43,495 nt of DNA from positions 1 through 43,495 of the forward strand of contig JAATGF010000109.1 in the NCBI GenBank assembly GCA_015654795.1. Direction: 5' to 3'. Shown piece by piece: positions 3,827-26,716 of the stretch (its first letter is position 1; each line of letters starts with the position of its first letter). Both the position numbers and the translations under genes were made by a program. The notes below the pieces were generated by a model. The model worked only from the letters and a program-made list of their open reading frames with translations. It did no database searches and was not told where the DNA came from. This DNA comes from Bacteroidales bacterium (GTDB lineage Bacteria > Bacteroidota > Bacteroidia > Bacteroidales > Prolixibacteraceae).

Positions 3827-3903
3827 AAAAAAGTAACAGGAAAGCGTTGGCCCGCCTTCCTGTCAAAATTTTAGCAGAGATAAAAAATAAAAATTTCCAC
3901 TAA
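3827..3903 (-). ncRNA. Predicted DonS-like cis-antisense RNA in the PUL1 FecR-SusC spacer
   Basis: The minus strand carries a TACTTTTG promoter box at 3916-3909, a predicted start near 3903 and a terminator hairpin. The hairpin arms are 3836-3846 and 3853-3863 (11 pairs, 6-nt loop), followed on the minus strand by UACUUUUUU ending at 3827. The single plus-strand A.C mismatch becomes G.U on the minus strand. Predicted length is about 77 nt, close to DonS of Bacteroides fragilis, which is antisense to the leader of a SusC-like gene and represses its PUL. The likely role is to base-pair with the susC leader and dampen SusC expression. Start and end are predictions; the same layout recurs in PUL2 and PUL3. 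Confidence 0.6.
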
Positions 3904-3908
3904 CAATA

Positions 3909-3916
3909 CAAAAGTA
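3909..3916 (-). promoter_or_regulatory. Antisense -7 promoter box overlapping the PUL1 susC start codon
   Basis: Plus-strand CAAAAGTA reads TACTTTTG on the minus strand, an exact TAnnTTTG match. Its first base pairs with the A of the susC ATG. The identical octamer sits at the identical position in front of the two other susC genes. No convincing -33 TTTG was found about 20 nt further into susC. Confidence 0.5.
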
Positions 3917-6900
3917 TGAATAAAAAATTAAAACGTGGGGATACGTATGCCCCAATACTAACTAAACTTTCACGAATTATGCGACTAATGATCTTGATGT
4001 TTATTCTTGGGATTAACAGTCTGTTGGCAGCATCTGGTTATTCACAATCAGCAAAGATAACGTTGAAAATGTCAAATGCCCGGATTGAAGAGGTCCTGAA
4101 TAAGATAGAAAGCAAAAGCGAATTTTATTTTCTATTTAACCAAAAACAAATCGATATCAATCGAAAAGTATCGATTGAAGCTAATGACGAAAAGATTTCA
4201 GATATTTTAGATGAGTTGTTTGCAGGAACTGATGTAAAACACCAGGTAATTGATCGTCAGATCGTTTTAACTGCAACTCCGGTAACGGAGAATCAGCAGC
4301 AGGGGAAAAAAGTTGCTGGTAAAATAACGGACAGTTCAGGAGTTCCATTACCAGGCGTTTCTGTAGTTATTAAAGGAACGACAACCGGAGTGATTACAGA
4401 TAATGACGGAAAATATTCTCTTTCGAACATCCCTGAGAATGCAACTATTCAATTTTCTTTTGTCGGAATGAAAATGCAAGAGATAACAGTTGGAAACCAA
4501 ACAGCTATAAATATAGTATTAGCAGAAGAAACTATTGGATTAGAGGAGGTTGTAGCTATCGGGTATGGCACTCAGAAGAAAAGTAGCATAACAGGTTCAG
4601 TTGCTGGTATATCGGCAGCCAATCTAAAAGACAGATCCCTCGTATCGGGGGTTGAGGCAATGGTTGGACAGGTTGCCGGAGTTCAGATTCAACAAATTTC
4701 TGGTGCACCCGGAGCGGAGGGATTGTCAATACGAGTAAGAGGTACAGGATCAATAACTCAGTCAAATGAGCCTCTTTATGTCGTCGATGGGTATCCAATG
4801 GAAGCAGGTGCATTTAGATTATTAAGTTCATCGAATATTGAGAAAATTGAAGTATTAAAAGATGCTTCTTCAACTGCAATTTATGGTTCGAGAGGTGCAA
4901 ATGGTGTAGTTATCATTACTACAAAGAAAGGTAAAGGTAAGGCTTCCATCAGTTTCAATATGTATGGTGGATTCCAACAGGCTGAAAAGTATTTTGACAT
5001 GATGAATCGTGATCAATACGTTGAATATTTTATTGAAGGGCGAAATAATGCATGGTTAGATGCGGCTCTTATTTCAACTGACCCTAATACAACAGCTCAT
5101 TCGATTAATGATCCAAATAGCAGAAGAAAACTGTATGCCAGTGCAGCAACTCAATATTTAATTCCTGACGGAACCGATGGATATACTTACAACTTTCTGG
5201 ATCCCAAATCCGTTGCAACAATGCCGGATAATGACTGGCAAAAATTACTTTTTAGAAATGCGATGATTCAGAACTATGAAGTTTCGCTTTCCGGAGGAGA
5301 CGATAGAACACAATACATAGTTTCTGCCAGTATATTAAAACAAGATGGGATTGTAATCAATACCGATTATCAAAAGATTAATATTAACTCCAATGTAAGC
5401 AGCAAAATAGGTGACCGCTTAAAAATTGGACTTAATATGAACTCCTATTTTTCTTCTAATAATGAACAAGTTTCAGGAAAATATTCTCCAATACAAATTG
5501 CATTACAATTGCCTCCTATTTTCCCTGTGAATAATGCGGATGGAACATATGGTTCAATGGTGCGAAATTATGATATATTTTCCGGGGATGTTGCCAGTCC
5601 TATCGGAATGGCGGAACAAACCACTAATTTCAGAAAGCGTAATGGATGGATGGGTATATTGTTTGCTGATTTAGAAATCATAAAAGACTTAAATTATAAA
5701 ATAAGTGTCAATGGAGGTATGCAGGATAACAATTTGAAGTATTATTTACCTTCATATGTTGATATGGATGCTTCCAGAGCGCCACGAATAGCACAAGGCA
5801 GTAAGACCAGTACAAGCGATCAGGATTGGGTAATTGAACAAACGTTGACCTATCAAAAGACGCTTGCCCAAAAGCATAATTTTGAGGTGTTAGGTGGATA
5901 TACTGCACAAAAACACATCTACGAATATATGTACGGTGAGGCACGGGGTTTTCCGAATGATGCTATCCAAACATTGAATGCCGGAACCATGTATAATCTT
6001 TCATCAACAGAATCAGAATATTCTATGATTTCTTATCTGGCTCGTCTTAATTATTCATACGATAACAAATACTTGTTTTCTGCTGCATTCCGTAGTGACG
6101 GCTCTTCCCGATTTGGGAAAGATAATAAATGGGGTTCCTTCCCATCACTATCTGCTGGTTGGCGAATTAAACAAGAGAATTTTATGAAGAATATCGATTT
6201 TATAAACGATTTAAAATTACGCGCCAGCTGGGGCATATCCGGGAATAACAGAATTGGAGATTACTCTGGAATTGGGTTGTTAAATATTGGGTACTATCCA
6301 ACAGGTGATGCCTTACAAAACACAGTGAACCCAAGTACGATGTCGAATGATCTTCTGGGATGGGAAAAAACACGACAGATAAATTTTGGATTTGATTTGA
6401 GTATGTTTTCAAACAGGGTTCGTTTAGAAGCTGATTTTTATAATAGTGAATCACAGGAATTGCTGTTAGACGTTCCGGTTCCTACAATTACAGGATATTC
6501 AACGCAAATGCAAAATGTTGGGAAAGTGCAAAATAAAGGAATGGAGTTTTTATTATCCACCAAAAATTTTACAGGTGAATTTAAATGGTCCAGTGACTTT
6601 AATATCAGTTTTAATAAAAACGAAGTACTTGAATTGGGACCAGGAGGCCAACCTATTTATGCCAGTGCTCCTAATGCGTCTAATGCTTTTATTACCCAAA
6701 TAGGACATCCTATTGCCAGTTATTACGGGTACAAATACGATGGTGTATATATGAATCAGGCAGAATTGGATAAATACCCTCATCTGTCAGGTGATGAAGT
6801 TGGAGGTCCTCGTTTCACCGATGTAAATAAGGATGGAGTTCTGGATGCAAACGACAAAACAATTCTGGGTGACAACCAACCGATTTTTACTGCAGGGTTT

Positions 6901-7383
6901 AACAATACCTTTTCATATAAAAACTTCACTCTGGGACTTCAATTTACCGGATCTTATGGAAGTGAGATATTCAGTATTTATAAACGAATGATTGCTGTTT
7001 ATCATGGTGATCGTAATGGAATGGTTGAATGTACTGATCGTTGGCGTTCGGAAGAAGATCCGGGAAGCGGTAAGGTTTTCCGGCCAACTCGTACGCCATC
7101 CGGCTGGTCGCGCGATCCTTCTTCATATTGGATTACTGATGGCTCGTATTTACGACTAAGAAGCGCATCTTTATCCTATACATTCAACAATAGTGTGATT
7201 GAAAACTTAAATATGAAAGGACTTCGTATTTATATTACCGGACAAAATCTATTTACGATAACCAACAATCCTGGCTACGATCCTGAAACCAGTAGTGAAG
7301 GCGATGGTTTAACCCGTGGAGGTGATTATACTGGATATCCTGCCGCCAGATCTTTTATTCTGGGTGTTAATGTTACATTTTAA
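3916..7383 (+). CDS. SusC-family TonB-dependent glycan transporter of PUL1, with STN domain
   Basis: A 1155-residue outer-membrane TonB-dependent transporter that imports oligosaccharides with its SusD partner. An extended N-region and hydrophobic signal segment occupy about 22-42. The STN signalling domain (about 47-120) contacts the FecR protein in the periplasm. A carboxypeptidase-regulatory-like beta-sandwich spans about 133-205 (GKITDSSGVPLPGVSVVIKG). The plug begins near 210 (EEVVAIGYGTQKKSSITGSV), and the 22-strand barrel ends in an aromatic residue (GVNVTF). It lies 18 bp upstream of susD and the two are surely co-transcribed. The STN domain means the transporter also signals through the sigma/FecR pair. 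The predicted antisense RNA at 3827-3903 overlaps its leader. Substrate cannot be told from sequence. Confidence 0.96.
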   Translation: MNKKLKRGDTYAPILTKLSRIMRLMILMFILGINSLLAASGYSQSAKITLKMSNARIEEVLNKIESKSEFYFLFNQKQIDINRKVSIEANDEKISDILDELFAGTDVKHQVIDRQIVLTATPVTENQQQGKKVAGKITDSSGVPLPGVSVVIKGTTTGVITDNDGKYSLSNIPENATIQFSFVGMKMQEITVGNQTAINIVLAEETIGLEEVVAIGYGTQKKSSITGSVAGISAANLKDRSLVSGVEAMVGQVAGVQIQQISGAPGAEGLSIRVRGTGSITQSNEPLYVVDGYPMEAGAFRLLSSSNIEKIEVLKDASSTAIYGSRGANGVVIITTKKGKGKASISFNMYGGFQQAEKYFDMMNRDQYVEYFIEGRNNAWLDAALISTDPNTTAHSINDPNSRRKLYASAATQYLIPDGTDGYTYNFLDPKSVATMPDNDWQKLLFRNAMIQNYEVSLSGGDDRTQYIVSASILKQDGIVINTDYQKININSNVSSKIGDRLKIGLNMNSYFSSNNEQVSGKYSPIQIALQLPPIFPVNNADGTYGSMVRNYDIFSGDVASPIGMAEQTTNFRKRNGWMGILFADLEIIKDLNYKISVNGGMQDNNLKYYLPSYVDMDASRAPRIAQGSKTSTSDQDWVIEQTLTYQKTLAQKHNFEVLGGYTAQKHIYEYMYGEARGFPNDAIQTLNAGTMYNLSSTESEYSMISYLARLNYSYDNKYLFSAAFRSDGSSRFGKDNKWGSFPSLSAGWRIKQENFMKNIDFINDLKLRASWGISGNNRIGDYSGIGLLNIGYYPTGDALQNTVNPSTMSNDLLGWEKTRQINFGFDLSMFSNRVRLEADFYNSESQELLLDVPVPTITGYSTQMQNVGKVQNKGMEFLLSTKNFTGEFKWSSDFNISFNKNEVLELGPGGQPIYASAPNASNAFITQIGHPIASYYGYKYDGVYMNQAELDKYPHLSGDEVGGPRFTDVNKDGVLDANDKTILGDNQPIFTAGFNNTFSYKNFTLGLQFTGSYGSEIFSIYKRMIAVYHGDRNGMVECTDRWRSEEDPGSGKVFRPTRTPSGWSRDPSSYWITDGSYLRLRSASLSYTFNNSVIENLNMKGLRIYITGQNLFTITNNPGYDPETSSEGDGLTRGGDYTGYPAARSFILGVNVTF

Positions 7384-7401
7384 TTCAAATCTTATCTGGA
7401 T

Positions 7402-8970: not shown

Positions 8971-8981
8971 CAAATTGTAAT

Positions 8982-9011
8982 AGAGGCCAGGAGAGATTTT
9001 GCCTGGCCTCT
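8982..9011 (+). other. Stem-loop between PUL1 susD and the enzyme genes
   Basis: A perfect 10-bp stem (AGAGGCCAGG at 8982-8991 with CCTGGCCTCT at 9002-9011) closes a 10-nt loop. A few outer A/T pairs can extend it past a small bulge. No U-tract follows, so it is more likely an mRNA-stabilising or partial-attenuation element than a full terminator. Confidence 0.55.
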
Positions 9012-9039
9012 TCTATTATAAATTTATAAAAATTCAACA

Positions 9040-9738
9040 ATGAAAACTAAACTGATATTATTAATTATTTTATTCTGCAATGTTGGGGTTATTGAGGCTC
9101 AGTTACCCCAATTAAATTCAAAAGAATTAAAGGAAGGATGGACACTGCTTTTTAATGGAAAAACGCTGGATGGCTGGAAAAAGTCGAATGGAGAGCCTGT
9201 CCCTGATAAAGGATGGAAAATTGAAAATGGTGTACTTTCGGTCGATCCATCATCTGGTAGAGGCGGAGATATTGTTACAAAAGAAAAATTTTCAAACTTC
9301 GAATTTTCTGTGGAATTTAAACTAACAGAAGGTACAAATAGTGGGATAAAATATTTTTTATTCGATAACACATCGCTTGGTTGTGAATTTCAGATTTTGG
9401 ATGATGCGAATCATCCCGATGCCAAGATGGGGAAGAATGGAAACAGGCTGCAAGGTGGGCTCTACGATTTAATTTCTCCATCAAAGAATAAAAAAGACAT
9501 GCCAAGAGGTCAATGGAATAACGGAAGGATTATATCGAAAGGGAACCATGTTGAACACTGGTTAAACGGAAAGAAAGTTGTGGAATATGAAAGAGGAGGC
9601 GAGTTATTTAAGCAGCTTGTCGCTGAAAGTAAATACAAGAAAGAAACCGGATTTGGAACGATTGACCAATCTCCGATTTTGCTTCAGGACCATGGTGACA
9701 TCGTCTATTTTAGGAACATAAAAATAAGAAAACTATAA
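9040..9738 (+). CDS. DUF1080 (3-keto-disaccharide hydrolase-like) protein, exported
   Basis: A 232-residue protein with an N-terminal signal peptide (1-20, ending IEA-Q) followed by one concanavalin-like DUF1080 domain covering nearly all the rest. Hallmarks are KEGWTLLFNGKTLDGWKK, GGDIVTKEKFSNFEFSVEFK, NSGIKYF, HWLNGKKVVEY and the C-terminal YFRNIKIRKL. Members of this family have been linked to hydrolysis of 3-keto-glycosides made by Gfo/Idh/MocA dehydrogenases. The next gene, 15 bp downstream, is such an oxidoreductase, which supports that job here. No lipobox is visible, so a soluble periplasmic location is likely. A second copy lies at 11229. Family membership is clear; the reaction is inferred from relatives and context. 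Confidence 0.88.
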   Translation: MKTKLILLIILFCNVGVIEAQLPQLNSKELKEGWTLLFNGKTLDGWKKSNGEPVPDKGWKIENGVLSVDPSSGRGGDIVTKEKFSNFEFSVEFKLTEGTNSGIKYFLFDNTSLGCEFQILDDANHPDAKMGKNGNRLQGGLYDLISPSKNKKDMPRGQWNNGRIISKGNHVEHWLNGKKVVEYERGGELFKQLVAESKYKKETGFGTIDQSPILLQDHGDIVYFRNIKIRKL

Positions 9739-9753
9739 TTTTAAAAATAGCAA

Positions 9754-11091: not shown

Positions 11092-11136
11092 GTCTATCGA
11101 ACTTGGATTTCATACACTCATACGTTCTTTATAATT

Positions 11137-13328: not shown

Positions 13329-13384
13329 ACTTCAGACAATTTTTTTGTCTTTTCATAACTAATTAGTCTATTTTAAACTTGTCT

Positions 13385-13981
13385 ATGTCGATGCAAAAAT
13401 TTAAAAACGATCCGGAAGCACTGCTGCAATTGGCGGAAGGCAATCTTGATGCTTATCGTTTTTTGTTTGACCATCATTTTACGGACCTCTGTAACTTTCT
13501 GTTAATCTATTTGCACAGTAAAGAGCTTGCTGAAGATATTGCCCTTGAAATTTTCACCTTCATCTGGGAAAAACGTCAAACGCTGGTAATCAAAACAAAT
13601 TTTAAATCGTTTCTTTTTTCAGCAGCCAAAAACAAGGCCATCACGCTTTACCGAAAGGAACATCAAAAAATATTCGCTTCAATCGATATCTGCGAATCAT
13701 TCATGCCGATTGATTCCTCTGCTCAATTTACAATTGAAAACAACGAACTTCGCGATCTGATTAATGAAGCAATCTCCAAACTTCCGCAGAAAAGCCGACA
13801 GGTTTATCTGATGGCATGGGAAGAAAATATGTCTTATAAAGAAATTGCTGCTCAGCTTGGGCTAAGCACTAAAACGATCGAGAATCATATAGGGATTGCG
13901 CTGCATAAACTTCGCGAATCGCTTAAACCATACTATAAGCAAATATTTATGTGGTGGATGATATTACGATTTCTGGAATAA
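13385..13981 (+). CDS. ECF RNA polymerase sigma factor of PUL2
   Basis: A sigma factor of about 198 residues. Region 2 includes YRFLFDHHFTDLCNFLLIYL and AEDIALEIFTFIWEKRQ. Region 4 includes LPQKSRQVYLMAWEENMSYK and the helix-turn-helix EIAAQLGLSTKTIENHIGIA. Possible starts are TTG 13379, ATG 13385 and ATG 13391; ATG 13385 is chosen as the first ATG. It is more divergent than the PUL1 and PUL3 sigma factors are from each other, for example AEDIALEIF in place of AEELVQ-VF. It should activate the PUL2 susC operon under control of the FecR protein 247 bp downstream. No exact TAnnTTTG box was found just upstream. Confidence 0.92.
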   Translation: MSMQKFKNDPEALLQLAEGNLDAYRFLFDHHFTDLCNFLLIYLHSKELAEDIALEIFTFIWEKRQTLVIKTNFKSFLFSAAKNKAITLYRKEHQKIFASIDICESFMPIDSSAQFTIENNELRDLINEAISKLPQKSRQVYLMAWEENMSYKEIAAQLGLSTKTIENHIGIALHKLRESLKPYYKQIFMWWMILRFLE

Positions 13982-14228: not shown

Positions 14229-15260
14229 ATGGAACCGCTAAACACCCCTTGGGAAGCAATTGCTGCCCGGCTAAAAAACGAAGCTACCGACGAACAACTT
14301 CTTCAGATTGAGGAATGGCTTGGATTATCGCCTGAGAATCAGGCGGTACTTTCTGAAATTGTGAGCACATGGTCGTTAACCAAACATAAAACCCAATTTT
14401 ACGAGCCAGACAAGTCTATTAACTGGAAGAAATTAATGAGGCGGATTGGCAAAACTCAGGGCCGGTCCATAGAATTAAACACCTGGACCCGATGGATTGC
14501 CGCAGCATCAATTATAGTTGTGGTTTTTCTGGCAGGCCTTGGTTTGGGCGATGGATTCTTTAAACATTCCTCAAATATTTCCGTTGCTAACGTAACAGCT
14601 ATTTCTTTTGTTAAGGTAACAGCCCCCGAAGGGTCTAAAACCCAAATTATTTTGCCCGACAGCACCCATGTCTGGTTGAATTCGGGAGCTGAATTGCAAT
14701 ATCCAAGTGATTTTACAACTAAAAATCGTGAGGTAGCCATGAAAGGCGAATGTTTTTTCGAAGTTACCAAAGATGCGGAACATCCCTTTATTGTGGATGG
14801 AACCAAACTCCGCATTAAAGTATATGGAACACAGTTTAATGTAAACGAAGATCGCTTTACCAATGGCACTGACGTTACATTGATTTCGGGGAAAGTAGAA
14901 ATTTACAACCAGGATAATCAACTCTTGTCAAAACTAAATCCCGGCGAGCAGTTAGTTTACGACAAAGGATTAAGTCGCGTTCAGAAAACACAAAACCCCG
15001 AAGCATTGACTTCATGGATTAATAATATGCTGATTTTTAACAATCAGCCATTTGAAGAAGTAATCCATTACCTCGAAAAATGGTATGAGGTGAAGATTAC
15101 GCTCGATAAAACGCTTTATTACAATTACAATTACACATTTAAGGTCAAAACTGAAAGTCTGCGTGAAGTACTTGAACTAATATCATTTATCACTCCTATC
15201 GAGTACCATATTGAAGGAGAAAAAGTAACCATTAAATACCGGAAACATATGAAGAAATAA
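14229..15260 (+). CDS. FecR-family anti-sigma factor of PUL2
   Basis: A 343-residue inner-membrane anti-sigma protein. The cytoplasmic sigma-binding part is at 1-86 and one transmembrane helix spans about 88-108 (AAASIIVVVFLAGLGLG). The periplasmic FecR domain covers about 125-225 (PDSTHVWLNSGAELQYPSDF, VYGTQFNV), and a DUF4974-type C-terminal domain follows at about 265-340. It lies between sigma and susC and receives the STN signal from the SusC protein. The 145-bp spacer to susC holds the longest of the three predicted antisense RNAs. Confidence 0.93.
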   Translation: MEPLNTPWEAIAARLKNEATDEQLLQIEEWLGLSPENQAVLSEIVSTWSLTKHKTQFYEPDKSINWKKLMRRIGKTQGRSIELNTWTRWIAAASIIVVVFLAGLGLGDGFFKHSSNISVANVTAISFVKVTAPEGSKTQIILPDSTHVWLNSGAELQYPSDFTTKNREVAMKGECFFEVTKDAEHPFIVDGTKLRIKVYGTQFNVNEDRFTNGTDVTLISGKVEIYNQDNQLLSKLNPGEQLVYDKGLSRVQKTQNPEALTSWINNMLIFNNQPFEEVIHYLEKWYEVKITLDKTLYYNYNYTFKVKTESLREVLELISFITPIEYHIEGEKVTIKYRKHMKK

Positions 15261-15274
15261 AAGAAAAAAAGCAC

Positions 15275-15393
15275 AAAAAAAAACAGGAAGTGTTCGAGAC
15301 TCCCTGTTTATTAAAGTAGTTTAACATTAAACCGAATTTTCTGTGCAAAATGCTTCCTGATAAAAGTGATGCACAAAAGATTCAAAAACTAAA
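15275..15393 (-). ncRNA. Predicted DonS-like cis-antisense RNA in the PUL2 FecR-SusC spacer
   Basis: The minus strand has a TACTTTTG box at 15406-15399, a predicted start near 15393 and a strong terminator. Arms 15281-15291 and 15299-15309 form 11 pairs around a 7-nt loop, running straight into a U-tract from the nine plus-strand A residues at 15275-15283. The one plus-strand A.C mismatch becomes G.U on the minus strand. Predicted length is about 119 nt, longer than the two others. An extra inverted repeat (TGTGCA at 15342-15347 with TGCACA at 15370-15375) could add a second stem. The expected role is repression of SusC through its leader. This is the clearest terminator of the three. Confidence 0.62.
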
Positions 15394-15398
15394 TCATT

Positions 15399-15406
15399 CA
15401 AAAGTA
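15399..15406 (-). promoter_or_regulatory. Antisense -7 promoter box overlapping the PUL2 susC start codon
   Basis: Plus-strand CAAAAGTA reads TACTTTTG on the minus strand, an exact TAnnTTTG match, overlapping the A of the susC ATG exactly as in PUL1 and PUL3. No good -33 TTTG is seen inside susC. Confidence 0.5.
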
Positions 15407-18400
15407 TGAAAAATTTAATTCGTTTGTACCGGCTAAAGCCAACCATTCAAAAAATTCTATTAACTATGCGACTAACACTCTTATTCCTGGTTATTAGTGT
15501 TTTCAGTGCATTTTCGAATACCTATGCACAAAAAACGAAACTGGACATCAATGTTCAAAACAGTACGGTAAAAGATGTCTTGACCGAAATTGAATCTCAG
15601 AGCGAATTTTTCTTCATGTACAACAACAAACAGGTAGATGTGGAACGCAAAGTCGATCTTGATGCAAAATCCACAACAGTTGATGTTGTATTGCAAAAAT
15701 TATTTGCCGGAACCGATGTGAATTTCAAAGTTGTAAACCGTCAGATTTTGCTCTTCCCAAATGACATCATCAATTTGGCTGAACAGCAAGGCAAAAAGGT
15801 TACAGGTAAAGTTACCGATCTATCTGGTGCACCAATTCCAGGAGCAGCTATTATCGTAAAAGGCACCACAATTGGCATCACGTCTGATAATGATGGTAAT
15901 TTCTCATTATCATTACCTACGGATGCCAAAATACTTGTCTTTTCTTTTGTAGGAATGAAAACTACGGAAATTTCCGTTGGAAACCAAACAAAGATTGATG
16001 TAACTTTAGCTGACGAAACAATAGGGATTGAAGAAGTTGTTGCTATTGGATACGGAGTACAGAAAAAAAGCGATTTAACCGGAGCGATATCATCAATAAA
16101 TGATCGTAGTATAAAGAATGAGCCCATCCAACGAATGGAACAAATGTTACAGGGTAGAATAAGTGGGGTTTCTGTCACATCAACCTCCGGTGCTCCGGAC
16201 GGAAGTGTTATGATTCGAGTTCGTGGAGCTAATTCAATTAATGCAGGTAATGATCCATTATATGTTGTTGATGGAGTTGCCAATAGTGACCTGTTTAAGT
16301 CACTTGACGTTAATGATATCCAGTCGATGGAAGTCCTGAAAGATGCGTCTTCAACGGCAATTTATGGTTCAAGGGGTGCGAATGGCGTTATTATCGTAAC
16401 AACAAAAAAAGGAATTCAAGATAAATCAAAAATACAATTTGAAACGCAACAAAGCTGGGGAACCGTAGCAAAAAAATACGACATGTTAAATGCCGTTGAA
16501 TTTGCAAAGTTTTACAATGACTATCGTAAAGTTAAAGGATCAACATCTGATTTTTATTCTGCAGATCAAATTAATGACTGGACTAAAAATGGTGGTTATG
16601 ATTGGCAGGATTTAATGTTTCAAACTGCCTACTCAAAAAACTATAAGCTTTCTACTTCTGGAGGTTCTTCAAAAGTACGTTACTATTTGTCAGGTAATGT
16701 TCGCGATGCAGAGGGAATTCTAATAGAATCGAAATATAAGAAATATGGCGTCAGGGCAAATATAGACGTTAATAGTTTTGACTGGCTCACTGTCAATTTT
16801 GCGATGAATGCTTCTCATGATGAATCAAGCGGGAATTCAAGCGGAATAACAGGTGTTGGCGGAGTTATCTGGGACGCACTTACTTATAGTCCAACCGTTG
16901 GTTTAAAAGATGCAGATGGTAATTGGATAACAGATAATGTAAGTTCTTATCAGAAAAATCCTTATGGAAGAAGAATGCAAAATAAAGATGATATTCTTTC
17001 AAATTCTTTTGGCGGAAATACCCGGTTTAGTTTTATTCTACCCGTTAAAGGTTTAACTTTTGATGTTTTAGGAAGTGCAAATTATTTGAATAGATCAAAT
17101 TATGGTTTGACCTCTGCGTTATATAATCTGAATGTTCAAAATGCAGCATCAAATGGTAAAAATGAATACATTAGCTGGCAAAATACGAATCAGTTAACCT
17201 ACACTAATAAATGGGGTAGTCATAGCTTTACAGCCACCGCAGTAGCCGAGTATACAAAAGAAACATCAAATTATCAATCAATTGCAGTAGATAATTTGCT
17301 GACAGAATCAGTTAGCTATTGGAATCTGAACTTGGGCTCAATGAATAATTTTGGGAATGGTTATAGTAAATCGACTTTATCTTCCTATTTAGGCCGTGTT
17401 ATGTATCAGTTAAAAGATAAATATTTATTTACAGCAACTGTAAGGCGTGATGGTTCATCAAAATTTCAAGGAACTAATAAATGGGGGTATTTCCCATCAG
17501 TAGCATTGGGATGGAGAGTAAGTGAAGAAAATTTCTTAAAAGGAAATAAAACCATAAACAATGCCAAATTGAGAACAAGTTGGGGTGTTACCGGAAATCA
17601 GGGTATTGGTGCGTATTCAACATTGGGTATGTTATCAAGTTCAAGTTATTCTTGGGGAACAGCGACTCCGTATCCGGGTTATTGGACTCAAAATCAACCT
17701 ACCCCTAATTTAACATGGGAAAAAACTTACCAATGGGATGCAGGGTTAGATCTTGGTTTTTTTAACAATCGTTTGGTTGCGTCAATTGATTTTTATTTGA
17801 AAAATACAAAAGACTTGTTATTGCAAAAAGCCATTCCTTATTACGATGGAGGAGGTTCAGTTTATGCGAATTTAGGAAGTGTAAGAAATAAAGGATTTGA
17901 AATTAGTTTAAATATTATTCCTATAAGTACAAAAAATTTGAACTGGGAATCTTCAATAAACGTTGCATATTCTCAAAATGAAGTCGTTGAAATGGGAGGA
18001 AACGAAAGACTATTTCCCGGTGATTTTGACAATCTGATTACTTTTAATCCCTCTGTATTGCAAGTTGGTCAACCCATGGGTTCATTATGGGGTTATCAAT
18101 GGTTAGGTCTTTGGAAAACCACCGAAGAAGCAGAAGCCGCAAAATACGGGCAAAAACCCGGAGACAACAAAATATTGGATAAAAATCAAGATTATATCAT
18201 TGATAGTAATGATCAGGGAATTATTGGAAAAGCTTTTCCCGATATTACATTTGGTTGGAATAATACCATTTCATGGAAAAAATTCGAATTTAACGTGTTT
18301 TTTCAAGGGGCAGTTGGTGCCGATAGATTAAACCTCACTCGCTATGGAATATCCGAATCTATTAGCGATGCAAGGTTTATAACATCGAAAGAAGGATTTT

Positions 18401-18726
18401 ATGATATGTGGACTCCTGATAATCAAAACACCAATATTCCAAATCCATACAGCACAACGATAAGAACAAATGCAGGATCAACTCAATATTTGGAAAGCGC
18501 CGATTATTTACGGTGTAAGAACATTAGTATTGCTTATAACTTACCTTTAAAATCCAACAGCATTAAAATTTCATTTAGTGTACAAAACTTATATACCCTT
18601 ACTTCATATAGTGGTTATGATCCAGAGGTTACGAGTTCAGGTACAAGCGATACACGATCAGGAATTGAGACTGGAGCTTACCCTTCACCAAGAACATATA
18701 CAATTGGCTTAAGAGTCGATTTCTAA
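15406..18726 (+). CDS. SusC-family TonB-dependent glycan transporter of PUL2, with STN domain
   Basis: A 1106-residue outer-membrane transporter. The signal segment lies at about 21-42 (MRLTLLFLVISVFSAFSNTYAQ), the STN signalling domain at about 44-117, and the regulatory-like beta-sandwich at about 133-205 (GKVTDLSGAPIPGAAIIVKG). The plug starts near 210 (EEVVAIGYGVQKKSDLTGAI), and the barrel ends at residue F1106 (GLRVDF). It imports an oligosaccharide with the SusD protein encoded 55 bp downstream and signals through the FecR/sigma pair upstream. About 50 residues shorter than the PUL1 SusC, mostly in the barrel loops, which suggests a different ligand. Substrate is unknown. Confidence 0.96.
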   Translation: MKNLIRLYRLKPTIQKILLTMRLTLLFLVISVFSAFSNTYAQKTKLDINVQNSTVKDVLTEIESQSEFFFMYNNKQVDVERKVDLDAKSTTVDVVLQKLFAGTDVNFKVVNRQILLFPNDIINLAEQQGKKVTGKVTDLSGAPIPGAAIIVKGTTIGITSDNDGNFSLSLPTDAKILVFSFVGMKTTEISVGNQTKIDVTLADETIGIEEVVAIGYGVQKKSDLTGAISSINDRSIKNEPIQRMEQMLQGRISGVSVTSTSGAPDGSVMIRVRGANSINAGNDPLYVVDGVANSDLFKSLDVNDIQSMEVLKDASSTAIYGSRGANGVIIVTTKKGIQDKSKIQFETQQSWGTVAKKYDMLNAVEFAKFYNDYRKVKGSTSDFYSADQINDWTKNGGYDWQDLMFQTAYSKNYKLSTSGGSSKVRYYLSGNVRDAEGILIESKYKKYGVRANIDVNSFDWLTVNFAMNASHDESSGNSSGITGVGGVIWDALTYSPTVGLKDADGNWITDNVSSYQKNPYGRRMQNKDDILSNSFGGNTRFSFILPVKGLTFDVLGSANYLNRSNYGLTSALYNLNVQNAASNGKNEYISWQNTNQLTYTNKWGSHSFTATAVAEYTKETSNYQSIAVDNLLTESVSYWNLNLGSMNNFGNGYSKSTLSSYLGRVMYQLKDKYLFTATVRRDGSSKFQGTNKWGYFPSVALGWRVSEENFLKGNKTINNAKLRTSWGVTGNQGIGAYSTLGMLSSSSYSWGTATPYPGYWTQNQPTPNLTWEKTYQWDAGLDLGFFNNRLVASIDFYLKNTKDLLLQKAIPYYDGGGSVYANLGSVRNKGFEISLNIIPISTKNLNWESSINVAYSQNEVVEMGGNERLFPGDFDNLITFNPSVLQVGQPMGSLWGYQWLGLWKTTEEAEAAKYGQKPGDNKILDKNQDYIIDSNDQGIIGKAFPDITFGWNNTISWKKFEFNVFFQGAVGADRLNLTRYGISESISDARFITSKEGFYDMWTPDNQNTNIPNPYSTTIRTNAGSTQYLESADYLRCKNISIAYNLPLKSNSIKISFSVQNLYTLTSYSGYDPEVTSSGTSDTRSGIETGAYPSPRTYTIGLRVDF

Positions 18727-20329: not shown

Positions 20330-20388
20330 TATCATACAGTTTTAATATTAGAATAGACGAGTAGAGGAAAGAAATTACCTCGGTTTTT

Positions 20389-20435
20389 CCAATTTTTGAT
20401 TTTTCTACAGTTATTTGCGGGAAAACAAAAATTGG
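20389..20435 (+). other. Long stem-loop after PUL2 susD
   Basis: CCAATTTTTG (20389-20398) pairs perfectly with CAAAAATTGG (20426-20435). Inside, TTTTC (20401-20405) pairs with GAAAA (20421-20425), leaving a 15-nt loop. No clear U-tract follows. It may attenuate or stabilise the susCD transcript before the DUF5107 gene. Confidence 0.45.
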
Positions 20436-20541
20436 GAAGACTAAGTCTAAATAACTGAAATGTTTTTAACAAATTCTAAGAATTTTACCATCTACAATCT
20501 TACGAATTAATGATTGCATCGAACCATTTAATTATGAACAC

Positions 20542-23500
20542 ATGAAAGAATTTCAATTAAAAGAAAAAAAAATCTTGACAAGGAATTTCCGTCTCAGAAT
20601 TCAGCCAACACATTTCGAGCGATATGAGTTAATTCATAATATCAGCTTATTGCATAAATGCGCACCAAATCTAAGATTTATTTCCATTTTGTTTGTTGGC
20701 ATTATCATGCTGGCTCTTCCGTCCACGAGCATAGCACAATCGTTAGTCACAGTCAGTGAAGTCAACCAAGTCATCCCAACCTATCTTGCCGGTCCTCCCG
20801 ATCCGAACCCCATGTTCTTCTTTGGAAAAGGATCGCAGGGAGCCGAGGGACGCATTTATCCTTATTCGCTCTATGATAATCTTACGAACAAAAAGAGCGA
20901 TAAAACTTACAAACTTGTATATATTGAAAACGAATATGTGAAGATAGGTATTCTTCCTGAGATTGGTGGCCGATTATTCTCGGCGATAGACAAAACAAAC
21001 AATTACGACTTCGTCTATCAGCAGCATGTCATCAAGCCTGCACTTATTGGCCTGACGGGAGCATGGATTTCAGGTGGTATTGAGTGGAATATACCACATC
21101 ACCATCGGGCAAGCACATTTATTCCTGTTCAATGGAGCAAAGAAGAACATGCTGATGGCAGCAAAACCATTTGGGTCGGTGAACTTGAAGTACGGCATCG
21201 TATGCGTTGGGCGGTTGGGTACACGTTACGGCCAGGCAGTTCTGTTCTTGAGTGCTCAGTGCGAATCATCAACCGTACACCTATGGTGAATACGATGCTC
21301 TGTTTTGCAAATGTAGCAGTACAAATCAATGACAGCTACCAAGTCATATTCCCACCAAGCACGCAATGGTCTACAGGTCACAGTAAACGTAGTTTCTCAC
21401 CATGGCCTGTTACTGACAATGTTGATGTAAGCTGGTACAAAAACAATAAAAGTTCTGCCTCGTGGTTCGCGGTGAATTACGAGGATGATTTCATTGCCGG
21501 TTATGATCATGGTAAAAACGCTGGTATAATGACCATTGCCGATCACAATATCATCCCTGGCAAGAAATTCTTCACATGGGGAAAAGATAATATGTGGGAT
21601 AAGATTCTCACAGATGATGACGGCCCTTATCTGGAAATTATGGTTGGTGCCTACTCCGATAATCAGCCCGACTATTCGTGGCTGCAACCCTTCGAAGAGC
21701 GTTCGTTTGAAATGTCATGGTATCCTTTCCGAGGCATTCAAGGAGTAAAAAAAGCCAATTTGGATGCAGCAGTTAACCTCGAAGTAAAAGATGGCAATGC
21801 AATATTAGGATTTTATACAACGAAAGCTTATCAAAATGCGACTATTACACTTAAAGCGGGTACAAAAGTTCTTTCAGAAGAAAATATCTCAATCGATCCG
21901 GGTAAACCCTTCACCAAACAAATAGCTTTACCATCTGATCTGGACGAACATGACTTACGGGTTTCTATCTCGTCAGGAGGGCGCGAACTTGTAGCATATT
22001 CTCCGATCCGTCTGCAACCTACCTCAAAACCAGAGGCGACCAGTAATCCAGCAGCACCTTCAGATATTAAAAATGAAGAAGAGCTTTTCCTGGCTGGTCA
22101 ACGTATTGATCAGTTTCACAATCCTGCACTTGATGCAAATCCTTATTGGGAAGAAGCGCTCCGTCGGGATTCGGGCAACGTTGCAGCTAACACAGGAATG
22201 GGGTTGTTAAGTTTGAGGAGTGCAAAATTTGTGCTTGCTGAAAGCTATTTTAGAAAAGCAAATGACCGGCTCACTGCTCAGTATACCACACCTAAGAATG
22301 CCGAACCCACCTATTATTTAGGCGTTTCCCTTAAAGCGCAAGGACGCATAGACGAAGCATTTTCTGCATTCTATAAAGCCACATGGAGTCAGGAATGGAA
22401 ATCCCCCGCCTATTTTTCAATTGCCGAAATTGCTTCTTTACGCGGTGACTTTTCAGCTTCTCTAAATTATATTAATCGTTCGCTCGATGCTAACGCACTC
22501 AATGTTCGTGCGTATGGTTTAAAAGCAGCTGCGTTACGCCACCTCAATCGTAATGATGAAGCACTTCAGGTGCTTGCTTTTGCAAAAGAAAAAACCGACC
22601 CGCTTGATGTACGTCTCATGACTGAACTATGGCTGATATCGAAAGATGCAAAAGTTGCAGAAACACTTTTTGCAACATTAAATACCCACCCGGCTACTGC
22701 ACAAGAAGCGGCAGCAGAATTCTGCAATGCAGGTCTTTGGAGCGATGGTATCTCTGTTTTATTACAGGCGATTGCAACGGCACAAGACAAGACAAATATT
22801 TCTCCGCTTGTTTATTACTATCTTGGATATTTCAGTGAAAAACTGGGTGATCATACAAAAACTGCAGAATATCGCCAGCAAGCAACACTTCAGTCTCCGG
22901 ATTACGTTTTCCCCTTTCAATCGGAGGCTATTACTGTGCTTAGTCGGGCAATGGAAGCCAATCCAAAAGATGCCCACGCTCCTTATTATCTTGGTAATCT
23001 GCTCTTCGACTGGCAACCCGATGAAGCCATCTCACTTTGGGAAAAGGCTGTCGAACTTGATCCGCAATCAATTACTTTGAGAAACCTCGCACAGGCCTAT
23101 TCGCATAAAGCTGGAGATGAGTCGAGAGCAAAAGCAATTTCTTATATGGAAAAAGCAGTCGCTTTAAGCAATCCCGATCCAACTCATTTTGCAGAGCTCG
23201 ATCTGCTCTATAAATCTGCAGGCACATCGGTTGAAAAACGGCTTGCCTTGCTCGAAAAGAATCAAAAGACTGTTCTCAAAAAGGATGAAGCGCTTGGCGA
23301 CTTGATTAATCTAAAGATTTTCGTTGGAAAGACCGACGAAGCTATTCAATTGTTAAAGAGCCGCGTGTTCAGTATATGGGAGGGAGATAATGCATTTAAC
23401 ACGGGACAGGCCTGGACTGATGCTCATCTGGTTCGTGGTCTGCAAAGTTTTGGGGCAAAAAAATATCGTGATGCTCTTGTCGATTTTGAAGCAGCACTCA

Positions 23501-24072
23501 ATCCTCCAGAAAATCTGCGTGCCGAACAACGTTTCGACAAACGAAAGGCTGAAATCGCTTATTGGGTCGGCTGTATTTATGCTGCGTTGGGGGAAAAGGA
23601 AAAAGCTCAAAAATCATGGGAAGAAACAGTCGCTACCAAATCACAGGCTGGCATAGAAGGTTTCATGCATGGTGGAGCCCTTGCACCCAATCAAATTGCC
23701 GTCAATAGACAGGCGAGTATAGTGGGTGGTATCAGCAAGAAAGGTAACAATCAACTTTTCAACGGAAGCCAACGGTATTATCAAGCACTTGCACAGCAGA
23801 AACTTGGGAATAAAGATGAGAATGAAGCCATATTTAATGATATGGTGACATCTGCGTCAAAAGCTTTGAACCAGTTTACCAATGCAGAAATAAATGATTC
23901 TTTAGTTTCCCCCAAACACCGTTCGAATACGAGTATAGCAATGGCTCATTATATTGCAGGACTGGGCTATTCAGGTCTTGGCAATAAAGCTAAAGCCCGC
24001 GAAGAGTTTAATAATGCTTTGGCCTCCTCGCCCGACTTTCTGAATGCAAAGATCGCTTTAAACCAGCTCTGA
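20542..24072 (+). CDS. DUF5107 domain protein with C-terminal TPR repeats
   Basis: A 1176-residue protein of unproven function. A long basic N-region precedes a signal segment at about 46-67 (ending STSIAQS), so it is probably exported. The DUF5107 domain covers about 70-385, with NEYVKIGILPEIGGRLFSAID, GAWISGGIEWNIPHHHRAST and FFTWGKDNMWD. Its motifs recall the galactose-mutarotase-like sugar-binding fold. A beta-rich linker (about 390-495) is followed by many TPR repeats to the end (about 510-1176). It is the only enzyme-like gene of PUL2, so it should act on the imported glycan. It may be an uncharacterised glycosidase or a sugar-binding scaffold. A good terminator follows at 24115-24147. 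Confidence 0.85.
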   Translation: MKEFQLKEKKILTRNFRLRIQPTHFERYELIHNISLLHKCAPNLRFISILFVGIIMLALPSTSIAQSLVTVSEVNQVIPTYLAGPPDPNPMFFFGKGSQGAEGRIYPYSLYDNLTNKKSDKTYKLVYIENEYVKIGILPEIGGRLFSAIDKTNNYDFVYQQHVIKPALIGLTGAWISGGIEWNIPHHHRASTFIPVQWSKEEHADGSKTIWVGELEVRHRMRWAVGYTLRPGSSVLECSVRIINRTPMVNTMLCFANVAVQINDSYQVIFPPSTQWSTGHSKRSFSPWPVTDNVDVSWYKNNKSSASWFAVNYEDDFIAGYDHGKNAGIMTIADHNIIPGKKFFTWGKDNMWDKILTDDDGPYLEIMVGAYSDNQPDYSWLQPFEERSFEMSWYPFRGIQGVKKANLDAAVNLEVKDGNAILGFYTTKAYQNATITLKAGTKVLSEENISIDPGKPFTKQIALPSDLDEHDLRVSISSGGRELVAYSPIRLQPTSKPEATSNPAAPSDIKNEEELFLAGQRIDQFHNPALDANPYWEEALRRDSGNVAANTGMGLLSLRSAKFVLAESYFRKANDRLTAQYTTPKNAEPTYYLGVSLKAQGRIDEAFSAFYKATWSQEWKSPAYFSIAEIASLRGDFSASLNYINRSLDANALNVRAYGLKAAALRHLNRNDEALQVLAFAKEKTDPLDVRLMTELWLISKDAKVAETLFATLNTHPATAQEAAAEFCNAGLWSDGISVLLQAIATAQDKTNISPLVYYYLGYFSEKLGDHTKTAEYRQQATLQSPDYVFPFQSEAITVLSRAMEANPKDAHAPYYLGNLLFDWQPDEAISLWEKAVELDPQSITLRNLAQAYSHKAGDESRAKAISYMEKAVALSNPDPTHFAELDLLYKSAGTSVEKRLALLEKNQKTVLKKDEALGDLINLKIFVGKTDEAIQLLKSRVFSIWEGDNAFNTGQAWTDAHLVRGLQSFGAKKYRDALVDFEAALNPPENLRAEQRFDKRKAEIAYWVGCIYAALGEKEKAQKSWEETVATKSQAGIEGFMHGGALAPNQIAVNRQASIVGGISKKGNNQLFNGSQRYYQALAQQKLGNKDENEAIFNDMVTSASKALNQFTNAEINDSLVSPKHRSNTSIAMAHYIAGLGYSGLGNKAKAREEFNNALASSPDFLNAKIALNQL

Positions 24073-24114
24073 TGAGCTAATTAGTTAATAATAAATAAAA
24101 ATTCTTCAACATCT

Positions 24115-24147
24115 GCCCTTCGTTTTTAACGGAGGGCTTTTGGTTTT
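24115..24147 (+). terminator. Intrinsic terminator of PUL2
   Basis: GCCCTTCGTT (24115-24124) pairs with AACGGAGGGC (24128-24137) across a 3-nt loop, with one G.U pair. TTTT, GG and TTTT follow. It ends the PUL2 transcript 43 bp after the DUF5107 gene. Confidence 0.8.
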
Positions 24148-24228
24148 ACATTATTAACCTAGCTTGATATTAATCGTTTTTCATTTAAGTGGTTATCGTA
24201 ATCTAAAGCACTTTAGCACTTTTATACT

Positions 24229-24261
24229 CAACACGATGCGAACACGAAGGGAGAGCGGAAC
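24229..24261 (+). repeat. 33-bp dispersed repeat, copy 1
   Basis: This segment (core GCGAACACGAAGGGAGAGCG) matches 35344-35376 at 32 of 33 positions, differing only at 24237 (T against C). Both copies are intergenic and flank PUL3. Just after it, CGGAA-CTTA-TTCCG can form a small hairpin. Confidence 0.75.
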
Positions 24262-24323
24262 TTATTCCGTGAAAATAGTTTCTATATTCGCTTCATTGGC
24301 ACATAAACTGCATAGCACATTAC

Positions 24324-24354
24324 TTTATTTTTACCAGTCAGTAATATATATTTG
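24324..24354 (+). promoter_or_regulatory. Orphan promoter in the PUL2-PUL3 gap
   Basis: TATATTTG at 24347-24354 is an exact TAnnTTTG match. TTTA at 24324-24327, with a 19-nt spacer, is one base off the -33 TTTG. No open reading frame follows, but an intrinsic terminator lies about 100 nt downstream. Confidence 0.45.
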
Positions 24355-24360
24355 AATGCA

Positions 24361-24472
24361 ACACTTTATGCAACAACAATAGCATAATCATCGTATTGTC
24401 AATCAACTATATATAAATATTTCATAAAACAACTTTTGCATCGCTTATGGGCACCACTCTGGTGCTCTTTTT
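24361..24472 (+). ncRNA. Predicted orphan small RNA of about 110 nt
   Basis: It is bounded by the promoter at 24324-24354 and a strong intrinsic terminator. Arms 24449-24456 and 24460-24467 form 8 pairs with one G.U around a 3-nt loop, followed by TTTTT (24468-24472). The only ATG-led frame is 4 codons long, so it is non-coding. ATGCAA (24368-24373) and TTGCAT (24436-24441) could close an outer stem. It could regulate a neighbouring PUL in trans, or be a relic leader of a lost gene. The prediction rests on the pairing of promoter and terminator only. Confidence 0.45.
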
Positions 24473-24805
24473 ACTATGAAAAATGTTGCAGAAAATGATG
24501 CACAGAAAAGAAACAACAAGTTACTATTCAGGCCAATGCACAGATCTTTTTGTTGCATGAAAATATAGAAGTCAAAATCTTTGAATTAAAAGATTTAGGA
24601 TGGTAGTAAGAGAATCCTGAGAGTTTGGCTGTCATTATGTCTATAAAGAATAAGACCAGCAATTGATTCGCACTATAACATACTACTATCCCAAAATTTA
24701 ATCAGACAATACGAAACGATTTATTATCCCCTCACCTACCCAGCCAAAAGGACAAAAACCAAAATCTTTGCTCGCATTAATAAGCAATCATCGCTGTTAT
24801 TTTAA

Positions 24806-24813
24806 TACATTTG
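24806..24813 (+). promoter_or_regulatory. Candidate -7 box of the PUL3 sigma factor gene
   Basis: TACATTTG is an exact TAnnTTTG match 29 bp before the ATG. No matching -33 TTTG is present at the right spacing. Confidence 0.4.
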
Positions 24814-24842
24814 TCAGCAAATTATCCGACTAAGTATTATTG

Positions 24843-25424
24843 ATGGCTGAAACACGTGATGATCACAACCTAGTTCAGTTACTTCAGAAAGGAAATGTTA
24901 TTGCATTTGATTCACTTTTTGAAGTTTATGGCCCAAAGTTGTTTGGCTTTGCATTTAGGTATTTCAAAAATGAAAGTGAAGCTGAAGAACTTGTACAGGA
25001 AGTGTTCGTGCAAGTGTGGGAACATCGTCAATCACTGAAATCAGAGCTTTCATTCAAGTCGTACCTCTTTACAATTGCCCTTAATCATATCAGAAAATAT
25101 TTCAATAAAAAAGCAATTTCTCTTCGTTACCTCGAAAGCCTTCAGCACGACAATGAATTAACAGATAGTGAGAATGTTCACGATGATTATGAGTCGATGA
25201 TGAATCAGATTAACCAACTTATAGAACAAATGCCGCCGCGCCGGCGAGAAATATTTATAAAGAGCAAATTCGAGGGAAAAAGTTCGAAAGAAGTTGCTGC
25301 TGAACTAAATATATCGGCCGGAACTGTCGATAATCAGATTTCGGAAGCACTTCATTATATCCGATCTCACTTAAATAAAGAAAACATCGGCGTTTTACTC
25401 TTTCTCGTTTTATTTGTGTATTGA
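24843..25424 (+). CDS. ECF RNA polymerase sigma factor of PUL3
   Basis: A sigma factor of about 193 residues. Region 2 is LFEVYGPKLFGFAFRYFKNE then EAEELVQEVFVQVWEHRQ. Region 4 is MPPRRREIFIKSKFEGKSSK with the helix-turn-helix EVAAELNISAGTVDNQISEA. The ATG at 24843 is chosen; a TTG sits just before it. It is clearly a close paralogue of the PUL1 sigma factor (same EAEELVQ core, same C-terminal hydrophobic tail), which raises the chance of cross-talk between PUL1 and PUL3. It is followed after 159 bp by its FecR partner. Confidence 0.93.
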   Translation: MAETRDDHNLVQLLQKGNVIAFDSLFEVYGPKLFGFAFRYFKNESEAEELVQEVFVQVWEHRQSLKSELSFKSYLFTIALNHIRKYFNKKAISLRYLESLQHDNELTDSENVHDDYESMMNQINQLIEQMPPRRREIFIKSKFEGKSSKEVAAELNISAGTVDNQISEALHYIRSHLNKENIGVLLFLVLFVY

Positions 25425-25583
25425 ATTCAGATTTTAATAGGTCTGGTTCTCTGCATATTGAAAATATTTCAAAAAAACGTCTTAACGACCCATGAGAAAA
25501 ACCACCCTATCGGATATAAGATCCAAAGCATTTGAAAAAAAATCGTATTGACTTCCTAATACAAAAATGGCCAAGCAGTTTTA

Positions 25584-26633
25584 ATGAAAATATATTTACA
25601 ACAGTTAATTCAAAAATATTTGGATGGCAAAATAAACCTGAAAGAACAAATAGCGCTTTCGGAATTATTGGCTGATCCGAAAAATATTCATGCTGAAGAA
25701 ATCATGAACGATGAATGGAAGTCGCAACTTGATAATGAAATCATCAGTAACTGGAATTTAAAACCGGTTCTTGACCAGGTTCATCATCGCATCCGACTGA
25801 ATGATAATAACAAACCGAAACAGATGAATTGGACATTAACCTTTCAACGTATTGCTGCAGTGTTAATTATTCCGCTTCTATTATCATTTTTAACCTACTA
25901 TTATTTTCAGTCAAGAATATTTCAAGGAGCCGATTCGTATGCCGAAATACAATGTCCATTGGGAGTACGCACAAAGTTTTTACTTCCGGATGGATCGACA
26001 GGGTTCCTAAACAGCGGATCAAGTCTGAAATATCCGGTACAATTCGCACATAAACGAACCGTTGAACTAACAGGTGAAGCATTTTTCGATGTTGTACACA
26101 ATAAAGAGATACCTTTCCATGTGAATACCCGAAATCTCGATATTAAAGTTTTGGGGACTACTTTTAATGTACTTGCAAATGAGGATGAAAATACAGAAGA
26201 AATCGTACTTCAAACAGGAAAAATTGATGTATCGTCGAAAAACGGAAAACAATTGGCAGTTTTATTGCCTGATGAACAATTAATTCTAAACACAGATAAC
26301 CAAACGTTTACGAAAAAAGAGGTAATCGCATCGCAATACGCCACTTGGAAAGAGGGCATACTCGTTTTCAGGAATGAAAATATGCAACAAATGGCGCGTC
26401 GGTTAAGTCGCTGGTACAATGCTGAAGTATTAGTCGATGATCATATGCTTAACGATTATACTTTTCACGCAACTTTTATAGATGAACCACTCGATGAGGT
26501 GCTTAAACTAATTTCAATAACGACACCAATCACTTATAAAGAAGAAAGGAGGACAAGCAACAAAGAGGGATTATTCCAAAAGAGGAAGATTACCCTGCGT
26601 ATCGATAAATCAAAAATTAATCAATTTAATTAA
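25584..26633 (+). CDS. FecR-family anti-sigma factor of PUL3
   Basis: A 349-residue inner-membrane anti-sigma protein. The cytoplasmic N-terminus is at 1-86, one transmembrane helix spans about 88-107 (QRIAAVLIIPLLLSFLTYYY), and the FecR domain covers about 118-220 with the canonical LDIKVLGTTFNV. A DUF4974-type C-terminal domain follows at about 258-340. It closely resembles the PUL1 FecR. Its gene ends 90 bp before susC, and that short spacer contains the third predicted antisense RNA. Confidence 0.93.
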   Translation: MKIYLQQLIQKYLDGKINLKEQIALSELLADPKNIHAEEIMNDEWKSQLDNEIISNWNLKPVLDQVHHRIRLNDNNKPKQMNWTLTFQRIAAVLIIPLLLSFLTYYYFQSRIFQGADSYAEIQCPLGVRTKFLLPDGSTGFLNSGSSLKYPVQFAHKRTVELTGEAFFDVVHNKEIPFHVNTRNLDIKVLGTTFNVLANEDENTEEIVLQTGKIDVSSKNGKQLAVLLPDEQLILNTDNQTFTKKEVIASQYATWKEGILVFRNENMQQMARRLSRWYNAEVLVDDHMLNDYTFHATFIDEPLDEVLKLISITTPITYKEERRTSNKEGLFQKRKITLRIDKSKINQFN

Positions 26634-26711
26634 AATGAAACAGGAAAGTGTTCGAACCACTCTCCTGTCATATCAAGCAGTATCACACCCAATTATTGTT
26701 TAACTACTTAA
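26632..26711 (-). ncRNA. Predicted DonS-like cis-antisense RNA in the PUL3 FecR-SusC spacer
   Basis: The minus strand has a TACTTTTG box at 26724-26717, a predicted start near 26711 and a hairpin. Arms 26640-26650 and 26658-26668 form 11 pairs around a 7-nt loop, followed by UUCAUUUU on the minus strand. The single plus-strand A.C mismatch again becomes G.U on the minus strand. Predicted length is about 80 nt, like the PUL1 copy. The 3' end runs into the last codon of the fecR gene. Its U-tract is interrupted, so termination may be weaker than in PUL2. Confidence 0.57.
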
Positions 26712-26716
26712 TGATT

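Follow-up and report, generated by a model that had tools for sequence, protein, structure and literature searches.

Antisense hairpins and promoter boxes in three FecR-SusC spacers

The stretch of DNA analyzed here (the window, 43,495 nucleotides, contig JAATGF010000109.1 of the Prolixibacteraceae assembly GCA_015654795.1) contains three units, each consisting of genes for an extracytoplasmic function (ECF) sigma factor, a FecR anti-sigma factor, a SusC receptor and SusD, with sugar-related enzymes encoded around them. The spacer between fecR and susC in each unit holds a terminator-like hairpin that is fully paired on the minus strand, and a minus-strand match to a −7 promoter box overlaps the susC start codon (coordinates in Table 1). 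Taken together, the sequence and folding analyses make it quite probable that a small antisense RNA, having a promoter and a terminator of its own, is encoded in every such spacer and would pair with the susC leader and exert repression.

An earlier reading of the window made from its letters alone (the sequence-only reading) had placed the three hairpins at the positions listed in Table 1, which are exact, with 11 pairs at every site. It had also described one plus-strand mismatch per hairpin, always A.C, which becomes a G.U pair in minus-strand RNA, and this holds at all three sites. Other details needed amendment. The arm begins with ACAGG at sites 1 and 3, whereas that of site 2 begins AAACAGG, and the motif is not a family-wide feature. 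The U-rich tract said to follow each hairpin on the minus strand is strong at site 2, is separated from the stem by a short gap at site 1 (TACTTTTTTAAT) and is weak at site 3 of the window (TTCATTTTAATT); among aligned orthologues of site 3, the U-run immediately follows the stem in 8 of 9. The structure is kept, as had been proposed, whereas the loops, described as different, are in part related, a GTTCGA core being common to sites 2 and 3.

Strand bias of the hairpins

The genome containing the window (3.68 Mb in 180 contigs, estimated to be 69% complete) was surveyed for further FecR-SusC pairs. The FecR C-terminal family has 29 matches in it, comprising 23 FecR genes and six matches in frames of 882–1187 aa that are taken as the STN domain of SusC. 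The spacer before susC is at least 82 nt long for 22 of the 23 FecR genes. The remaining pair (L019, G000:C33) has a 26-nt spacer with neither box nor hairpin and constitutes a natural exception. Relatives were the best 80 of 593 loci in a scan of a genome collection, FecR being upstream in 67 and absent in 13, and the control set consisted of 80 spacers including one FecR-SusC spacer (L011), which was cleaned to 79 for terminator counts.

In a strand-neutral search treating G.T and A.C alike, a hairpin was found in 21 of the 22 own FecR-SusC spacers, with 30 A.C wobbles (G.U on minus) against three G.T. Relatives with FecR upstream have a hairpin in 52 of 67 spacers, with minus-favoring and plus-favoring wobbles in a ratio of 85:4, compared with 21 of 80 spacers and a ratio of 22:33 in the controls; the claim that the structure is kept specifically on the minus strand is thus borne out. 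A terminator score combining stem and U-tract, with a threshold of ≥35, was reached on the minus strand by 19/22 own spacers, 51/67 spacers of relatives and 17/25 further spacers of the same family, and on the plus strand by none in any of these sets. In the 79 cleaned co-directional control spacers the same threshold was reached three times on minus and ten times on plus, and in mononucleotide-shuffled own spacers 16 of 440 times on minus. The hairpins in FecR-SusC spacers are not due to chance. In addition, the 8 nt preceding the hairpin on the plus strand are 69–71% A, compared with 33% in controls, and read as U on minus, while the best local hairpin has the greater stability on minus in 81 of 89 cases.

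These counts bear directly on the idea that the hairpin is a sense-strand terminator of the sigma-fecR mRNA. The hairpin does lie just downstream of fecR, and sense terminators occur in 10 of 79 control spacers, but a plus score of ≥35 was reached in 0/22 own spacers, 0/67 of relatives, 0/25 of the further family and 0/67 from three more genomes considered below, the plus strand carries the A.C mismatches, and the A-rich tract before the hairpin would supply U on the other strand. The absent plus-strand terminator scores and the A.C mismatches led us to reject this explanation, which is hardly tenable.

The −7 box at the susC start

The primary sigma factor of Bacteroidetes recognizes a −7 element of consensus TAnnTTTG, according to excerpts of PMC7366714. 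At all three sites CAAAAGTATG spans the susC start, and its minus-strand reading is TACTTTTG. Of the 23 own FecR-SusC pairs, 19 carry an exact box at the SusC start; among 255 other genes, drawn from a 20-stretch sample together with the window, one does (Fisher p = 1.5e-24). Relatives with FecR upstream carry the exact box in 45 of 67 cases, and in 54 of 67 if another first base is admitted, compared with 1 of 13 SusC starts in relatives lacking FecR and 1 of 147 other open reading frames in the relatives' loci. Among ten orthologues of site 3, TA and TTTG are invariant and the middle nn is variable. Moreover, C at plus-strand position −12, equivalent to a first-base G on minus, occurs in 49% of 93 boxed sites and 9% of 183 control genes. 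Of the two elements of a housekeeping-type promoter (−7 TAnnTTTG, −33 TTTG), the −7 box is present at all three sites, and an alignment of 64 boxes gave no clear −33 element.

The same letters, CAAANNTATG on the plus strand, could instead be a translation-start signal of SusC with no promoter function, and A-rich leaders are indeed common before start codons in this genome. Against such a signal stands the rarity, reported above, of the box in the other genes, the other open reading frames of relatives' loci and the SusC loci without FecR; furthermore, 80% of 93 sites selected on NAAANNTATG have C as first base, compared with 9% of control genes, as TAnnTTTG predicts. The start-signal artefact was rejected on this rarity and on the excess of first-base C, and we regard it as very unlikely.

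Length, fold and loops of the predicted RNAs

The distance between box and U-tract gives predicted RNAs of ∼77 (75–79), 122 and 81 nt. Over 63 loci, with the start set 2 nt further in, the median predicted length is 83 nt and 57 of the 63 fall within 70–135 nt. Folding z scores of the predicted RNAs at sites 1, 2 and 3 are −5.31, −4.34 and −5.49 on minus and −3.63, −4.63 and −3.65 on plus, where the folding energies are −16.2, −26.7 and −16.5 kcal/mol. The RNA body without its terminator was folded separately for 81 of 116 loci, which were kept if their box was exact or near, their terminator scored ≥33 and their body measured 20–110 nt. In 76 of the 81 this body folds more stably on minus than on plus; its mean z is −2.47 relative to dinucleotide shuffles, and its ends are paired in 46 of the 81, compared with 27% of shuffles.

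Ten spacers orthologous to site 3 were chosen from 17 loci for alignability. Conservation in them extends over the hairpin and approximately the first 25 nt, and a 5′ stem and terminator hairpin are predicted. Paired changes are all one-sided (A-U/G-U, U-A/U-G) and none is double, the exceptions to pairing being occasional gaps and two cells left unpaired at the hairpin base. As regards the covariation looked for in homologous spacers, the ten orthologues show one-sided changes that keep pairing and no double compensations; double changes were seen among paralogues and more distant homologues, sequences selected for their ability to fold into the hairpin.

These observations also weigh on the possibility that the hairpin functions within the susC leader of the sense transcript, as a cis-regulatory RNA or protein-binding site, with the antisense features incidental. 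The plus strand still folds at the three sites, as its z scores indicate, but the best local hairpin is more stable on minus in the great majority of cases (the 81 of 89 given above), and the A/G changes in the 5′ arm of site-3 orthologues keep pairing on minus (A-U/G-U) where they would break it on plus. We judge this possibility to be highly improbable, slightly more so than the start signal.

The loops of 128 distinct antisense hairpins were compared with those of 23 generic terminators, a small control set from which the antisense hairpin L079 had been taken out. Six-base loops occur in 65 of the 128 and in 3 of the 23 (p 0.0011), closing UG..CA in 52 and 0 of 23 (p 2.6e-5), and a UUNNNG loop in 24 and 0 of 23 (p 0.026). 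Two mirror forms were seen among the 65 six-base loops, UUNNNG in 24 and the reverse-complement-like [CG]NNNAA in 13 (e.g., L064, L091, L003 and L010), as if the hairpin or loop were invertible.

Occurrence in other genomes

A MAFFT alignment (A2) of 48 of 70 hairpins with mixed loop lengths yielded no consensus structure and gave a model of sequence alone (R1). The covariance model used here (R2) was built from a gap-free alignment (A3) of 33 of 41 hairpins with six-base loops, eight weaker or odd ones being omitted. Covariation appears at 11 of the 11 pairs of A3, which is no independent proof, since hairpin formation was the criterion by which its members entered. In the searches with this model, scoring was limited to 150 first-look candidates per genome at most.

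Among the matches listed at E ≤ 1 in the own genome, 20 in number, 17 lie in FecR-SusC spacers and three elsewhere; the 17 are all antisense, ten belonging to the training set and seven lying outside it. A dispersed repeat was considered as an explanation and rejected on the concentration of these matches in FecR-SusC spacers. Applied to 15 other Bacteroidota genomes, to which named loci had led, the model gave at least 225 matches at E ≤ 0.1. Of the first 30 loci fetched, 28 are antisense between FecR and SusC, with 24 exact boxes and three near ones, and five of the 28 are, judged by their coordinates, training loci. The two misses, L193 and L207, are loci of the Flavicella marina genome outside FecR-SusC spacers. 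Another 20 matches picked down the listing (E from 4e-5 to 0.011) include 15 between FecR and SusC, 13 of them with an exact box, and five elsewhere. The anticipated presence of the same element in FecR-SusC spacers of related genomes is accordingly confirmed by 43 of 50 examined matches, antisense between FecR and SusC.

Three additional genomes were inspected. Bacteroides oleiciplenus has 18 FecR loci and 13 spacers of at least 40 nt, with boxes in eight, terminators in eight and both in seven (terminator score ≥30); Chitinophaga eiseniae (30 FecR loci, the best of 113 matches, 29 spacers) has 17 exact and four near boxes and 21 terminators; and Sinomicrobium weinanense (27 FecR loci, 25 spacers) has 13 exact and six near boxes and 15 terminators. 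Plus-strand terminators were found in 0 of the 67 spacers of these three genomes. Rfam gave no match at gathering scores over the window and none at E ≤ 0.5 in 12 loci. These distributions suggest that sigma/anti-sigma/SusC units of several Bacteroidota orders commonly include a predicted antisense RNA.

Proposed mechanism and its weighing

In the mechanism we favor, housekeeping RNA polymerase would initiate on the opposite strand ∼12 nt upstream of the susC AUG, from the TAnnTTTG box, transcribe back through the susC 5′ leader and stop at the hairpin and U-tract, at or just before the fecR end. The resulting RNA is predicted to form a stem at its 5′ end and, beyond it, the terminator hairpin. 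Since each G.U on minus is A.C on plus, this hairpin is weaker in the sense leader, and its firmness in the antisense RNA may leave the sense leader more open for pairing. By analogy with the antisense RNA DonS of Bacteroides, the antisense RNA would most likely pair with the part of the susC leader adjoining the start codon and thereby repress translation or stability of the SusC-SusD mRNA as long as ECF sigma activity is not strong; collisions between convergent polymerases may contribute.

Transcription interference could also be the main function, a polymerase at the start codon blocking or colliding with the sense polymerase, with the RNA a by-product and the terminator serving only to shield fecR and the promoter of the sense strand. 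Most of the FecR-SusC pairs examined do have the box overlapping the susC start, and transcription from it would converge with that of susC; however, the RNA body before the terminator is structured strand-specifically and the loop differs from the small generic-terminator set, neither of which interference alone needs. We consider this version unlikely, while giving it more weight than any other alternative raised here.

Several observations weigh against a repressive antisense RNA in every spacer. The exact box is absent from four of the 23 own pairs (L011, L014, L019 and L015, the last being one base off) and from 5 of 13 spacers of B. oleiciplenus, and among further FecR loci of the same family (27 usable of 29) ten have an exact box, nine a near one and eight neither. 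No clear −33 TTTG box emerged in 64 aligned boxes, the U-tract at site 3 of the window is weak, and the z score of the whole RNA at site 2 is as strong on plus as on minus. If the sense susC mRNA starts downstream of the hairpin, pairing would be short. Finally, some pairs of antisense RNA and polysaccharide utilization locus (PUL) in B. thetaiotaomicron correlate positively (excerpts of PMC10994844), and therefore simple repression is not general.

A bolder reading would make the antisense RNA a fourth part of the ECF sigma/FecR/SusC unit throughout the phylum: one old structured family, defined by a 5′ stem and a terminator hairpin with a UUNNNG-type loop and U-A and G-C closing pairs, having its promoter fused to the susC start codon and its recurrent loop read by a common RNA-binding protein or letting the RNAs act on each other's targets. 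We put this forward tentatively, as a proposal rather more likely to fail than to hold.

Other features of the window

Close to the fecR end lies TGCCTATG, found there in 35 of 112 regions and 0 of 79 controls. The related GCCTATG occurs in 40 of 112 regions and 1 of 79 controls, at a median of 124 nt upstream of the susC ATG. Either may be an ECF −10 element or a tiny open frame; the ATG within GCCTATG meets a stop within four codons in 28 of 40 cases, and the next frame does likewise in 26 of 40. No −35 partner at a fixed distance from TGCCTATG was found. For the SusC N-termini, the closest matches that carry names come from Prolixibacteraceae and from unclassified Bacteroidota assemblies. 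An AAA_14/DUF4143 ATPase gene (35729–36949) is situated downstream of the third SusC-SusD pair, between FAD oxidoreductase and glycoside hydrolase genes.

Table 1. Coordinates of genes and predicted elements of the three units in the window.
Feature	Position	Strand	Remark
ECF sigma factor, unit 1	2009..2590	+	
FecR anti-sigma factor, unit 1	2749..3777	+	
TGCCTATG element	3804..3811	+	just after fecR; candidate part of sense susC promoter, or tiny open frame
U-rich tract after hairpin 1	3826..3835	-	TACTTTTTTA
Predicted antisense RNA 1	3828..3904	-	∼77 nt; 5′ stem, linker, terminator hairpin; both ends predicted
Terminator hairpin, predicted antisense RNA 1	3836..3863	-	11 pairs, loop 6; full pairing only on minus
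Antisense −7 box TACTTTTG (TAnnTTTG), site 1	3909..3916	-	overlaps first base of susC start codon
SusC-type TonB-dependent receptor (STN, plug), unit 1	3916..7383	+	presumed target
ECF sigma factor, unit 2	13379..13981	+	
FecR anti-sigma factor, unit 2	14229..15260	+	
Predicted antisense RNA 2	15273..15394	-	∼122 nt; both ends predicted
Terminator hairpin, predicted antisense RNA 2	15281..15309	-	11 pairs, loop 7; U-run follows on minus
Antisense −7 box TACTTTTG, site 2	15399..15406	-	overlaps first base of susC start codon
SusC-type receptor, unit 2	15406..18726	+	
ECF sigma factor, unit 3	24840..25424	+	
FecR anti-sigma factor, unit 3	25584..26633	+	
Predicted antisense RNA 3	26632..26712	-	∼81 nt; orthologues retain 5′ stem and terminator hairpin; both ends predicted
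Terminator hairpin, predicted antisense RNA 3	26640..26668	-	11 pairs, loop 7; weak U-tract
Antisense −7 box TACTTTTG, site 3	26717..26724	-	overlaps first base of susC start codon
SusC-type receptor, unit 3	26724..30053	+	

Relation to known antisense RNAs

DonS and PUL-associated cis-antisense RNAs of Bacteroides were reportedly described by Cao et al. in 2016. DonS-type RNAs sit between the susC homologue and the anti-sigma gene, and the predicted RNAs occupy this very position, antisense and adjoining the susC homologue; a Rho-independent terminator is predicted at the 3′ end, with a weak U-tract at site 3. Antisense RNAs of plasmid copy control and type I antitoxins are likewise short, structured, terminator-ended cis-antisense RNAs directed at a leader, and differ from those predicted here in target, promoter type and genome context.

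In the excerpts available, DonS-type RNAs are 78–128 nt long and lower expression of the susC homologue (PMC7366714), a range that includes two of the lengths predicted for the window, the third (∼77 nt) standing at its edge. The same kind of excerpts list 32 annotated PUL-associated antisense RNAs in B. thetaiotaomicron (PMC10994844) and report antisense RNAs for 15 PULs of B. fragilis (PMC9723704). The predicted RNAs, antisense to susC homologues in sigma/anti-sigma/SusC units, look, in anatomy and position, like DonS-type RNAs as these are described. DonS-type RNAs are known from transcripts, and DonS also from repression, in gut Bacteroides, whereas those described here are predicted from sequence, in a Prolixibacteraceae genome and in other Bacteroidota orders, and differ further in a box overlapping the start codon and in a recurrent-loop hairpin. 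The sequence-only reading had proposed RNAs of this type, and the anatomy, including the −7 box and DonS-like predicted lengths, and the conservation support it.

FopS and GibS of B. thetaiotaomicron (excerpts of PMC11697453 and PMC7366714) resemble the predicted RNAs in being small Bacteroidota RNAs with a link to sugar metabolism; FopS has 14 members, 4 of them antisense and 9 intergenic, and GibS is intergenic. Compared by description only, they differ in that these passages give no tie to FecR-SusC spacers. In the literature covered, in part as excerpts, neither the promoter box at the start codon nor the recurrent loop was found to be reported, and neither was an occurrence outside Bacteroides; this negative is weak, most subscription papers lying outside that coverage. 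The mechanism of DonS is called unknown in excerpts of PMC11697453, and functional study of the PUL antisense class is still called for in those of PMC10994844.

The antisense arrangement is probably a built-in control on susC genes. The combination of a −7 box at the start codon with a hairpin paired fully only on minus provides a signature by which candidates can be annotated in a genome, and it gives exact bases for mutation, so that a role of these predicted RNAs in glycan priority becomes directly testable.

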